A DNA stretch of 64,000 nt, from contig HG799465.1 of NCBI GenBank assembly GCA_000531095.1, positions 333,900 through 397,899 of the forward strand, read 5' to 3'. Origin of the DNA: Gemmata massiliana (GTDB taxonomy: Bacteria > Planctomycetota > Planctomycetia > Gemmatales > Gemmataceae). This document shows, piece by piece, positions 60,541-64,000 of the stretch (position 1 is its first letter; each line of letters begins with the position of its first letter). Under the pieces are notes generated by a model. The model ran no database searches. It was given only the letters and a program-made list of their open reading frames with translations, and was not told the origin of the DNA. The translations under genes were made by a program, and so were the position numbers.

Positions 60541-61579
60541 ATGAGGAGTAAAGGAACAGCGGCCGAGTTGGAGGCGCGTCGTCGGTTAGCGGTTCAGCGC
60601 GTGGGCGAGGGGTGGGCACAACAGGACGTGGCCGCGTTCTTGGGCGTCCACCCGGCCACCGTCAAGAAGTGGGTCGCGCCACCGCGCCGACGGGCTGAGG
60701 GCCGGGTCCACGCCCGGGCGCCCTCGGTTCCTGACCGATGAACAGGAGCGCCAGGTGCTCGGGTGGGTTGGCGAACCGCCCACAGCCCACGGGTTCGATA
60801 CGGATCTGTGGACCGCGCGCCGGGTGGCCGAGCTGATCCACAAGACGTTCGGCGTGCGGTTCCACCCGCACTACCTGCGCGAGTGGTTGTCGATGCGCAA
60901 CTTCACCCCGCAGAAGCCGGCGCGCCAGGCGCGTCAGCGGAACCCGGCGGCCATCGCCCGGTGGGTGGCGGAGGACTGGCCGCGGATTCAAAAAAGGCGG
61001 CCGAGGGGCACGCCCACATCGTCCTGATCGACGAGTCGGGCCTGCTCATCAACCCGTTGGTGCGCCGCCGCTGGTCGGCGCGCGGGAACACGCCGGTGAT
61101 CGGCGGCGACGGCGGGCACCGGCGCAAGGTGTCGGTGATCGGGGCCATAACGGTCTCGCCCCGGACCCGCCTGTTGGGGCTGCGCTGGTCCACCCGCGCT
61201 GACGGGTATTTCGGGGCCGGTGAGGTGGTCGGATTCCTACGGTGCGTGCTCGGCGCGGTGCCGGGGAAGGTGACCGCGGTGTGGGACGGCGGGGCCAACC
61301 ACAAGAACCCGGTGATGCGCGCGCTCCTGGCGCGGAACCGGCGGGTGTGGCTCGAGCGGCGCCCCGGAGCTGAACCCGGTCGAGCACGTGTGGGGTTGGC
61401 TCAAGTACGGTCAGTTGGCGAACTTCGTTCCGGATGACTTGGTTCAGTTGAATCGCGAAATCAATAACCGACTGAAGCAATTGAGCGGCGACCGCCTGGT
61501 GCTGAGATCGCTCTGGGAAGGGGCGCAGCTGCCCTTCCCAGAGAAACTACGCCGGGAGCTTTGCTTACCTGCGGATTAG
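60541..61579 (+). pseudogene. IS630 transposase, interrupted by frameshifts
   Basis: Segments in order: HTH part (RSKGTAAELEARRRLAVQ, WAQQDVAAFLGVHPATVKKW) to about 60676; second segment (PRFLTDEQERQVLGWVGEPP) to about 60990; DDE core with VLIDESGLL and VWDGGANHKN; last part with PELNPVEHVWGWLKYGQLAN ending in a TAG at the very end of the element. The shift at about 60990 lies on CAAAAAAGG, a plausible -1 slippage site that could be natural. Those near 60675 and 61357 look like damage. DDE residues Asp, Asp and Glu are recognisable. Confidence 0.85.
61554..61579. repeat. IS630 right terminal inverted repeat
   Basis: Contains the stop codon of the transposase in its last three bases. Confidence 0.9.
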
Positions 61580-61685
61580 TAGTGCTGATCCTGCGCGGCA
61601 TCAGCCAGGGCACCCCGACCGCACAAGTGGCCCGGCAATTGGGGTGCGATCACAAGGACCTGCTGACGCTCCGGCATCGAAGAAG

Positions 61686-62133
61686 TCGGTGCCGGTAGCG
61701 CGCGGAACAGGATCGCGACCACCGAGTACAACCCCAACAGGCACGAGCCGGCGCGCAACACAGTCTTCTCGCGCCACCCGCGTGTGGTCTCCAGGGCCAA
61801 ACAACTGCGGGCCTCTTGGAACGTGGTTTCGATATTCCAGCGCCCGCAGTAGTGGCCAATGACGGCCGAAGGCGTCAGCTCGGCATCCGTGGTGAAGAAG
61901 TACTCGTCCCGATGTGTGCCGCTCGTGTCCCGGACGAACACCCACTGCACGGGCACGAGGCCCTGAACCGCCTTGTACCAGTGGCACGCGCCGTCAAGAA
62001 CCTCGACGCGCCGCTTCCCGCCGCCGTACCACCCGACCTCTAACTGCGTGAAAGCCGTGGCGTCGGTAACCGCCGCTCGGGGCTTAGGCCGACGCGGACC
62101 CTTAATCGCCCCAAACAATAGGGACACCCACAC
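61686..62133 (-). pseudogene. DDE transposase fragment (IS701/IS4-like)
   Basis: About 149 codons hold a transposase middle: WYGGGKRRVEVL, LVPVQWVFVRDTSGTHRDEY, then RWNIETTFQEARSCLALETT with the catalytic Glu. Both ends are missing: homology-like sequence stops after LFRALPA at about 61686 where the other transposase fragment begins, and the N-terminal half is absent. Not the same element as the one at 53.8 kb. Confidence 0.75.
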
Positions 62134-62204
62134 CCGTGTGAACCTTGACGGAGCAGCAAGAGTCTGTTATTACAACAATACCCTTGGAGAGTTGTGGGTG
62201 AACT

Positions 62205-62277
62205 GGGCGATTAACTCAGTGGCTAGAGTGCGTTCTTCACACGGACGAAGTCACAGGTTCAAATCCTGTATCGCCCA
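62205..62277 (+). tRNA. tRNA-Val (anticodon CAC)
   Basis: 73 bases. Acceptor GGGCGAT pairs with ATCGCCC, D-arm ACTC/GAGT, anticodon arm CGTTC-TTCACAC-GGACG (one G-T pair) giving CAC, T-arm ACAGG-TTCAAAT-CCTGT, discriminator A. CCA not encoded. Its 3' end is a likely integrase target. Confidence 0.92.
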
Positions 62278-62300
62278 CTCTACGCAAGTGTAGTCGAGTC

Positions 62301-62334
62301 AAGCACTTAGTGCTTACCTACCGACGGTCGGTAG
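62301..62334. promoter_or_regulatory. two adjacent palindromes between tRNA-Val and the integrase
   Basis: AAGCAC-TTA-GTGCTT (62301-62315) and CTACCGAC-G-GTCGGTAG (62318-62334) lie 24-57 bases past the tRNA and about 55 bases before the integrase start. They could be an operator, integrase arm sites or a tRNA terminator. Confidence 0.45.
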
Positions 62335-62387
62335 TGAGGTCTCGAAAGCCTGAAACTGCGGTAATGTACCGCAGAAGGGTTTTCAAA

Positions 62388-63701
62388 ATGCCTCGCTCCC
62401 CGTCGGTTCCTTCGTATCGTCTCCACAAACCTTCCGGTCAAGCAGTCGTCACAATCCGCACCCTCGACGGTGCCCGGCGCGACGTCTACCTCGGCACCTT
62501 CAACTCTCCAGAAAGTCGCGTCGAGTACGGTCGTATCGTCGCCGAACTCGCGACCACACCGCTCGCACCGCAGCCGTCTCGGGTCACCGGGCCGGCTGTT
62601 TCCGCGCGCCTGACGGTCGATCAACTCCTACTCGCGTTCCTCGCGCACGCCGAAAAACACTATCGCCGGGCCGACGGCACGCTCACCGACCAGTTCGACG
62701 AGTACAAGAACACTGCCAAGCCACTCCACTCGCTCTACGGACCGAGCGCCGCTGCCGATTTCGGCCCACTGGCCCTCAAAACCGTGCGCCAGGCGTTCAT
62801 CGACGCCGGGAACTGCCGCACCCTCATCAACAACCGCGTCGGGAAAATTAAGCGCGTCTTCAAGTGGGCCGTCTCGGAGCAGCTCGTCCCGGTCACCACG
62901 TACACGGCCCTGACCACCGTCACGGGGTTGCAGGCCGGTCGAACAGACGCGCGGGAGAGCGAGCCGATCGGTCCCGTCGATGACGCAATCTTGGAAGCCA
63001 CTCTACCGCACCTGAACCGGCACGTGCGCGGGCTCATCGAGTTCCAGCGACTGACCGTGTGTCGCCCGGGTGAGGCGTGCCGCATGCGCCGGTCCGACAT
63101 CGACATGAGCGAGGGCGTCTGGGTCTACAGGCCGGGTCAGCACAAGACCAAGCACAAGCGCAAGTCCCGCGCGATCCCGATCGGTCCGCGCGCCCAGGAG
63201 TTGCTTAATTCGTTCTTCACGTCCGATCCCGACGATTACGTGTTCTCGCCCACTCGCGCGATCGATGAGTACAAGGCCGCGCGTGCTGCGAACCGCAAGT
63301 TCGGGGACCAGTCCGGCCGCTCCGATCCGCGCCGCGTTGGACGGAAGCGGAAGCGCCCGCCGGCCGAGCGCTACAACCGGCGTGCGTACCTCACGGCCGT
63401 GAACCGGGGGTGCGACCGCGCGTTCCCGCCGACCGGTGAACTGTCGCGCCGCACCGGCGAGTCGCACGCGAAGTGGTGGGCGCGCCTGACGATCGAGCAG
63501 CGCGCCGCGGTCAAGAAGTGGCGCAAGGAACACCGCTGGCACCCGAACCAGTTGCGCCACTCCCTCGCCACCGAGGTGCGGAAGCGCTACGGGCTCGAGG
63601 CTGCCCAGGTCGTACTCGGCCACGCGAAAGCCGACGTTACACAGGTGTACGCCGAACGCGACCTCACACTCGCGCTCCGGGTCGCGGCCGAAATGGGTTG
63701 A
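62388..63701 (+). CDS. tyrosine recombinase/integrase
   Basis: 437 residues. Catalytic residues in order: Arg in VCRPGEACRM (near 226), HxxR in HPNQLRHS (near 386), His in LGHAKADVTQ and nucleophile Tyr421 in VYAERD. A SAM-like core-binding domain lies at about 75-180 with TVDQLLLAFLAHAEKHY. An insertion of about 75 basic residues (near 285-360, GRKRKRPPAERYNRR) separates the Arg from the HxxR, unusual for the family. The ATG at 62388 is the first before the DNA-binding part. Position 110 bases past tRNA-Val marks an integrative element. Confidence 0.93.
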   Translation: MPRSPSVPSYRLHKPSGQAVVTIRTLDGARRDVYLGTFNSPESRVEYGRIVAELATTPLAPQPSRVTGPAVSARLTVDQLLLAFLAHAEKHYRRADGTLTDQFDEYKNTAKPLHSLYGPSAAADFGPLALKTVRQAFIDAGNCRTLINNRVGKIKRVFKWAVSEQLVPVTTYTALTTVTGLQAGRTDARESEPIGPVDDAILEATLPHLNRHVRGLIEFQRLTVCRPGEACRMRRSDIDMSEGVWVYRPGQHKTKHKRKSRAIPIGPRAQELLNSFFTSDPDDYVFSPTRAIDEYKAARAANRKFGDQSGRSDPRRVGRKRKRPPAERYNRRAYLTAVNRGCDRAFPPTGELSRRTGESHAKWWARLTIEQRAAVKKWRKEHRWHPNQLRHSLATEVRKRYGLEAAQVVLGHAKADVTQVYAERDLTLALRVAAEMG

Positions 63702-63790
63702 GTATCCTCGCGCCGTCGGCGTGAAGGTGAACCCGTGTTGCAAAAAATTGGCGTTGAGGGAAGACTGGAACGGATTTAAGAGTGATGAAG

Positions 63791-63826
63791 GACCGGCGCG
63801 CCAACTTCGAGGACGACGCGCCGGCC
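63791..63826 (+). terminator. possible hairpin after the integrase
   Basis: An 8-bp GC stem (63793-63800 against 63817-63824) with a 16-base loop lies 90 bases beyond the integrase stop. No T-run. Confidence 0.35.
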
Positions 63827-63939
63827 CGCGAAACACCGTACCGACGATTCGGTCGTGTGTTGGGTGATGGTGTATCCCGTAAACAGGGCACCCGTCAACC
63901 CAAATGCGGGCGGTCCTTCGCCTCACATGGAGGTGAGCG

Positions 63940-64000
63940 ATGCGATTCGTGATTACAGGGCGCCCGTCAGTTGAAGTTGTGGACGCCGCGCTCGACCAAC
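63940..64000 (+). CDS. start of a gene cut by the window edge
   Basis: An ATG at 63940 preceded by GGAGGTGA with 3 spare bases, the strongest ribosome-binding site in this end of the window, opens a frame reading MRFVITGRPSVEVVDAALDQ to the edge. Too short to assign; it is probably the first cargo gene of the integrated element. Confidence 0.55.
   Translation, partial: MRFVITGRPSVEVVDAALDQ

Follow-up and report, generated by a model that had tools for sequence, protein, structure and literature searches.

In the Islander description of islands and prophages that reside at tRNA sites (PMC4383910), a tyrosine integrase gene is situated at the tRNA gene, the tRNA gene is regenerated, and a displaced tRNA fragment marks the far end of the element. 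Control of the integrase sets when an element leaves the chromosome; in the closest example found, intS of the KplE1 prophage, this control relies, as outlined in PMC2951348, on promoter overlap and on proteins, namely the integrase and its directionality factor. With regard to structured RNAs, the Rhodopirellula-1 motif is summarized by Weinberg 2010 (PMC2864571) as a candidate that is probably cis-regulatory and occurs in Proteobacteria and Planctomycetes, its entry there carrying no Rfam accession.

The window, i.e., the whole stretch of 64,000 nt analysed here, corresponds to G000:C4:333900-397899, where G000 denotes the genome of Gemmata massiliana itself (assembly of 9.27 Mb on 22 contigs). 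A tRNA-Val gene with the anticodon CAC is located at 62205..62278 on the + strand (ARAGORN; Rfam tRNA, 64.2 bits). By own-genome search, pattern search, and alignment, its 3' half (62230..62279, + strand) was found to be repeated as an exact 50-bp copy on the same strand at C4:429491-429540, 33.4 kb downstream and beyond the window. The 19-nt core of this direct repeat occurs at 2 sites only in the whole 9.27-Mb assembly, even with up to 2 mismatches allowed in the pattern search. From the exact tRNA repeat pair, an element of approximately 33.4 kb is therefore delimited (C4:396129-429540), with the intact tRNA gene and an adjoining integrase gene at one end and the second copy of the tRNA 3' half closing the opposite end. 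The repeat at 62230..62279 represents the attL core, and the tRNA gene, as the target of integration, was regenerated at this left end. The preliminary description had taken this tRNA-Val locus for the left end of an integrated element and had expected a direct repeat within about 200 kb; the downstream tRNA-Val copy lies well within this distance and bears out that the left edge of such an element is located at the end of the window. Insertion into tRNA-Val(CAC) was most likely carried out by the tyrosine integrase of the prophage itself. In relatives fetched in search of an empty site, conservation of the flanking genes next to the respective tRNA-Val gene was not seen. By eye, transposase-like genes flank the element on both sides (window 61500-62133 and G000:C4:430250-433079).

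The tRNA-Val query was matched in all 19 of 19 genus genomes, and extra copies of the tRNA-Val 3' half on the same contig, downstream and on the same strand, were observed in G000 (1), G009 (1), G011 (2), G026 (2), and G022 (3), the last of the three G022 copies being a full tRNA. Several of the extra copies are adjoined by integrases of the family, a pattern that is expected of tandem insertions. tRNA-Val is a recurrent integration site in the genus, sometimes in tandem.

As had been noticed before, a tyrosine integrase gene follows just past the tRNA 3' end, and a new gene begins at the window edge. The integrase of 437 aa (P0001) is encoded at 62388..63701 on the + strand, its start being located 109 nt beyond tRNA-Val(CAC), and matches Pfam PF00589 Phage_integrase (1.4e-15) and phrog_1 (5.2e-30). 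The next called gene, also on the + strand, is cut by the edge (63940..64000 in the window) and encodes 227 aa in the full contig (G000:C4:397839-398522). Its ATG is preceded by GGAGGTGAGCG, and its product has no family match in PHROGs, Pfam, or NCBIfam.

Genes of the element were called by codon use and subsequently submitted to family scans. Their order starts with the integrase, the 227-aa protein, a DUF1580 protein, a primase/helicase (phrog_239, 2e-20; AAA_25), and the terminase large subunit (phrog_979, 5e-60). Next come a fragment that resembles an anti-repressor (phrog_524, 1e-17), genes of planctomycete and stress type (TIGR03067; DUF2382, which also matches YflT weakly), a phage gene that is broken, a ParB-like protein (phrog_12047, 1.9e-20), DUF2278 and LTD proteins and then an esterase, a transposase-like stretch recognised by eye that contains 24 N, a 440-aa piece with a type ISP restriction coupler domain, and one protein each of the ECF-sigma and TIGR02996 types.

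Relatives of the integrase were observed in 54 of the 95 family genomes (E <= 1e-30) and relatives of the terminase in 13 of them (E <= 1e-5). G022, a genus relative in the Gemmataceae, harbors a fuller prophage at G022:C3:172000-211999 (L060, L061) with small and large terminase subunits, tail-fibre matches, a weak major-head match (7.6e-5), a portal match (1.1e-18) within a 1004-aa protein, and a 622-aa protein without assigned family that has relatives in the G000 and G026 elements. In case of G026, a related element located at the same tRNA-Val carries an integrase, a terminase small subunit, a terminase, and the 622-aa protein; arsenic-type genes (ArsR-like, aquaporin-like, and low-weight phosphatase-like) were seen by eye in this tRNA-Val element (G026:C1:9686004-9732308).

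Compared to the G022 prophage, the gene situated after the terminase of the G. massiliana element aligns with residues 31-93 of the 1004-aa protein that includes the portal match (8e-10) and is a truncated portal-type gene, and the next phage gene corresponds to the 622-aa protein in two pieces of 36% and 34% identity. A direct duplication of 149 bp (99.3%) at G000:C4:412837-413212 splits the latter gene into two frames; either slippage or an assembly artefact may account for it. A capsid family was not recognised among the 30 element proteins by PHROGs, a search that a weak or novel-type capsid would escape. A functional temperate phage would have its terminase, portal, capsid, and tail genes all intact; here the terminase large subunit is present and the full set is not. 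Judged by its genes, the element is a decayed prophage, in which integrase, primase/helicase, and terminase are kept and the portal gene and a tail-region gene are broken. A satellite with packaging genes only was first suggested by the missing portal and capsid, and was dropped because the fuller G022 prophage reveals that the portal-type and 622-aa-type genes are broken here. A relationship of the 203-aa protein at 415367 to a G022 tail-region protein was also considered and is unsupported.

The cargo had been supposed to be perhaps the most interesting part of the element. Annotation of the 33.4 kb did not support this, since decayed prophage, transposon, and planctomycete-type genes were found, and the cargo was set aside as main interest. 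The interest is located inside the window, where the palindromes between the tRNA and integrase genes make up a structure that is conserved, displays covariation, and goes with this integrase family. Inverted repeats had been announced for this gap and are indeed present, in the number of three rather than two: AAGCAC/GTGCTT, CTACCG/CGGTAG, and CTGCGGTA/TACCGCAG, all within 109 nt.

The conserved structured leader, comprising the stems P1 to P4, extends over 62282..62390 on the + strand as a covariance-model match that reaches the integrase start codon. Model R1, built from 13 copies (alignment A2) that all derive from other genomes, matches the window copy with 22.2 bits (E 1.8e-5 over 739 kb). 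Model R2 was built from alignment A4, which excludes the window copy and includes four other loci of the same genome, and matches with 48.8 bits (own-genome search, E 9.3e-12). The structure in the gap is far beyond chance. A three-way junction of P1-P3 (62295..62344, + strand) was placed by hand on the family consensus, based on family covariation and single-sequence folds. It consists of P1 (62295-62300 with 62338-62344, including one U bulge), P2 (62301-62306 with 62310-62315), and P3 (62318-62323 with 62329-62334). The P4 hairpin (62344..62384, + strand) is composed of an inner part (62356-62363/62367-62374) and an outer part (62344-62351/62377-62384), as assigned from folds and the family pairing test, and its 3' side carries an AAGGG ribosome-binding-like sequence (62375-62379). 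In the single-sequence minimum free energy fold of the window copy, P3 and P4 are present and the consensus P1 and P2 are absent.

Upstream regions of 30 integrases of the family, one per genome from 30 genomes, were considered in the first leader survey. The first hairpin was found by a regular expression in 31 of 32 loci, except for L049, in which the covariance model matches the P4 part only. Copies located behind different tRNAs share the arrangement GCCG-AAGC..GCUU-ACC-hairpin-UG-CGGC, followed by a hairpin that reaches the start codon, with varying stem sequences. Conservation is also pronounced at unpaired junction positions: in the first set of 85 and the second set of 41 leaders, respectively, the letters after P2 are A in 76/85 and 39/41 and C in 80/85 and 40/41, and the letter before the P1 3' strand is G in 84/85 and 41/41.

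A MAFFT alignment (A1) of 28 of the 31 extracted leaders, three cut-short ones being left out, does not take structure into account and was excluded from the counts. Alignment A4 contains 85 matches from 87 sources, with a threshold that was set to exclude partial antisense matches to the P4 hairpin; due to this stricter threshold, weak true leaders were left out as well. Considering the 84 distinct leaders and 28 pairs of A4, 93.5% of the cells hold standard pairs compared to 72.9% upon shuffling (0/500), and for 27 of the 28 pairs there are one or more rows in which both partners are changed, with 447 such cells versus 133.5 in the shuffled data. Controls with slid partners were paired in 30.7-47.1%. 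For the 55 leaders that are less than 70% alike, 93.5% versus 71.5% (shuffled) was obtained, and among the APC-corrected column pairs (75 rows) the 13 strongest are all pairs of the structure. The second set was drawn from 47 sources; 41 of them gave a match (E <= 2e-5), the six without one being dropped. Of the 47, 40 originate from integrase searches, many of them picked after leader matches had been seen, and seven were obtained via R2 itself. These 41 leaders lie outside the training set, none being identical to a training leader and one exceeding 80% identity (median best identity 0.70), and display 93.6% paired cells versus 66.5% upon shuffling and 24.6-49.1% with slid partners. Leader alignments are fitted to the model and hence biased toward it, but the slid controls on the same alignments still drop. 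Leaders of both sets are more stable than their dinucleotide shuffles (mean z -4.05 and -3.62). A common secondary structure is supported by this covariation.

R1 matches were observed in 45 of the 95 family genomes (E <= 1e-3, with filters that lose weak matches). A tRNA T-loop is situated upstream of 83 of the 85 leaders of A4 and starts 22-26 nt (75 leaders) or 34-35 nt (8 leaders) before them; one of the two exceptions lies at a contig end with the tRNA end still visible. For 51 of the 85 leaders the full tRNA was predicted by ARAGORN, covering 17 tRNA types. The downstream integrase passes a strict tblastn search in 66 of the 85, the other 19 having at most 150 nt available. In the own genome, the leader is located directly upstream of six of the seven integrases listed out of nine integrase-search matches, one of the six being a weak match (12.9 bits, E 0.016); L344 is the integrase without leader. 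Four more integrase fragments were located through their leaders. An additional leader, L347 (G000:C4:47954-48047), is situated behind a tRNA-Arg(CCT) with no integrase match and possibly represents the remnant of a lost element.

Among GTDB genomes, R2 matched (E <= 3e-6) at 61 of the best 80 integrase loci out of 435 relatives in all, some of these 80 being training loci. Leader-bearing loci include those of Limnoglobus roseus, Singulisphaera sp. GP187, Bythopirellula polymerisocia, and Botrimarina hoheduenensis, and whole-genome R2 counts (E <= 0.01) amount to 8 in L. roseus, 8 in B. polymerisocia, 2 in Singulisphaera, 1 in Botrimarina, and 0 in Rhodopirellula sallentina. Furthermore, 6 of 36 viral contigs carry R2 matches. 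In an even sample of the Planctomycetota, the leader was found in 8 of 392 genomes, the own one included (E <= 1e-5, stricter filters), and its occurrence outside the family is thus scattered. The leader accompanies one integrase family at a fixed position after tRNAs of many types.

The reading that we favour, with a probability of roughly 55%, is that of a decayed prophage at tRNA-Val(CAC) whose integrase leader would be transcribed and act in cis on the integrase mRNA, gating integrase translation by a change of fold. Within this explanation, we infer the action as RNA, the switching, the read-through from the tRNA, and the trigger. The leader may be transcribed by read-through from the tRNA gene, because the spacer of about 20 nt offers little room for another promoter; a sigma-70-like promoter was not detected on the + strand at 62000-62500, tRNA included, in a search against a consensus that planctomycete promoters may not fit. 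In one putative fold, the P1 3' strand and the linker would be paired inside the three-way junction, leaving the ribosome-binding region freer, and in the other they would pair to the pre-start region (outer P4) and close the ribosome-binding region. The change between both folds would gate integrase synthesis and, as a consequence, excision.

In agreement with such alternative pairing, pairing between the pre-start region and the stretch made up of junction, P1 3' strand, and linker amounts to -13.72 kcal/mol versus -10.27 kcal/mol for permuted partners (0/200), a signal that also occurs in the first 45 leaders, the last 40 leaders, and the non-redundant set. For the P1 3' strand alone, the signal was observed in the last 40 leaders and the non-redundant set and was absent from the first 45, where 25 of 200 permutations were as low. 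Four control tests that paired the 5' spacer, the P2 loop, or the P3 loop with the pre-start region or the linker gave no signal. These observations lend partial support to the idea that formation of P1 competes with occlusion of the ribosome-binding region. Pairing of the ribosome-binding site in single-sequence folds equals that of a control with shuffled upstream sequence (62 versus 64 of 66 above 0.5), such folding being uninformative in this respect. This equality counts against the favoured reading, as do the lack of a sigma-70-like promoter, the missing P1 and P2 in the fold of the window copy, the locus L049, and the L344 and L347 cases in the own genome. It is tempting to speculate further that the leader represents a new class of RNA switch in the Planctomycetota, a suggestion we regard as tentative and rather doubtful as it stands. 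Co-transcribed with the tRNA, the leader would be freed by tRNA 3'-end processing and then form the three-way junction, whereas the P1 strand would otherwise close the ribosome-binding region, and the state of the cell or of the tRNA junction would decide on integrase synthesis and exit of the element.

The main rivals to a cis-acting RNA are roles at the DNA level, and the composition of the stems bears on both. Folded DNA sites serve the integron integrase or Xer-using phages, and here hairpins extruded from single-stranded or supercoiled DNA beside the recombination core might likewise form part of the attachment site and be bound by the integrase or an accessory factor. The nearly fixed spacing from the tRNA core whichever tRNA is used and the tie to one recombinase family fit such a role, as do P4, which lacks a wobble bias (G-U 48 versus A-C 47), and P2, where the bias is reversed (G-U 3 versus A-C 10); moreover, the sense strand is not more stable than the antisense strand for whole leaders (31/85 and 24/41 in the two sets). 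On the other hand, G-U exceeds A-C in P1 and P3 (52 versus 12, both sets), as expected of an RNA in sense direction, and covariation links the pre-start region to the P1 3' strand and the linker, a feature for which a recombination site has no obvious need. On balance, we consider the structure unlikely to act as DNA. The symmetric covariation of P4 without strand bias would also suit an operator for a dimeric repressor (integrase, excisionase, or another regulator) that mediates autorepression at attL, with the junction as a separate entity. The tRNA gene is followed by the integrase gene in the same orientation, which is one of the arrangements classed in PMC2951348, where, as outlined there, the intS promoter overlaps attL. 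Such an operator leaves P1-P3 and the pairing of outer P4 unaccounted for, and the lack of a sigma-70-like site in the region searched speaks against it to the extent that the consensus applies to planctomycetes; we therefore judge it quite improbable.

GC-rich hairpins between a tRNA gene and an integrase gene could furthermore be taken for terminators that insulate the integrase gene by stopping transcription that comes from the tRNA gene. Since the hairpins come without a T-run, an intrinsic terminator was rejected: in 126 leaders, P3 is followed by TTTT within 10 nt in none and inner P4 in 3, and there is no terminator-like site at 62000-62500 of the window, which renders insulation very improbable. 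An explanation by common descent of the sequence upstream of the integrase, with no constraint on its structure, or by palindromes that arose by chance has to be weighed because the leaders are related, shuffling destroys this relatedness, and the alignments are fitted to the model. It is contradicted by the decrease to 30.7-47.1% and 24.6-49.1% with slid partners as well as by the persistence of covariation in the 55 leaders below 70% identity and the 41 leaders outside the training set, and we attach next to no credence to it. The short hairpins beside the integrase gene are a conserved folded element and would probably function as regulatory RNA.

For the integrated elements of the Planctomycetota, the leader provides a sharp marker, and with eight copies each, Limnoglobus roseus PX52 and Bythopirellula polymerisocia Pla144 are strains in which its function can be tested directly. 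In a comparison with the 4227 families of Rfam 15, the window at 62150-62500 yielded, at E up to 10, the tRNA and a sub-threshold antisense tRNA hit only, and other leader copies gave no match in seven loci at E up to 1 and in seven loci at the gathering threshold. A description of the leader was not found in the literature searched, a coverage in which subscription papers are largely missing.

Several known systems resemble the leader in part. Retroregulation of lambda int is exerted by sib, an RNase III-dependent element on the 3' side of int. An RNA structure controls integrase expression there, as it would here, but this leader is located 5' and overlaps the ribosome-binding region. The R and L box core of integron attC is contained in the folded strand, whereas here the repeat core is situated in the tRNA, outside the folded part. 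The int-alpA RNA motif (RF02996) is likewise a structured RNA and is linked by name to integrase genes, and it does not match the leader in the loci scanned; a sub-threshold int-alpA hit (32.9 bits, cut-off 35.8) was noted beside an integrase 3' end, outside the leader, at L059:1421-1487 on the - strand. The leader could be related to the Rhodopirellula-1 motif, going by the table description in PMC2864571, and the absence of R2 matches from Rhodopirellula sallentina speaks neither for nor against such a relationship. With Islander-type elements (PMC4383910) the locus shares this layout of integrase, regenerated tRNA, and displaced fragment, and it differs by the conserved structured integrase leader, a feature that goes unmentioned in that outline. 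The leader suggests an additional layer of control by RNA, or by folded DNA, that is distributed over many tRNAs and several families of the Planctomycetota and was not found described in the sources searched. Finally, KplE1 intS, as portrayed in PMC2951348, has the tRNA-adjacent integrase in common with this locus; regulation takes place in the attL region there, whereas here a covarying folded leader precedes the integrase gene.
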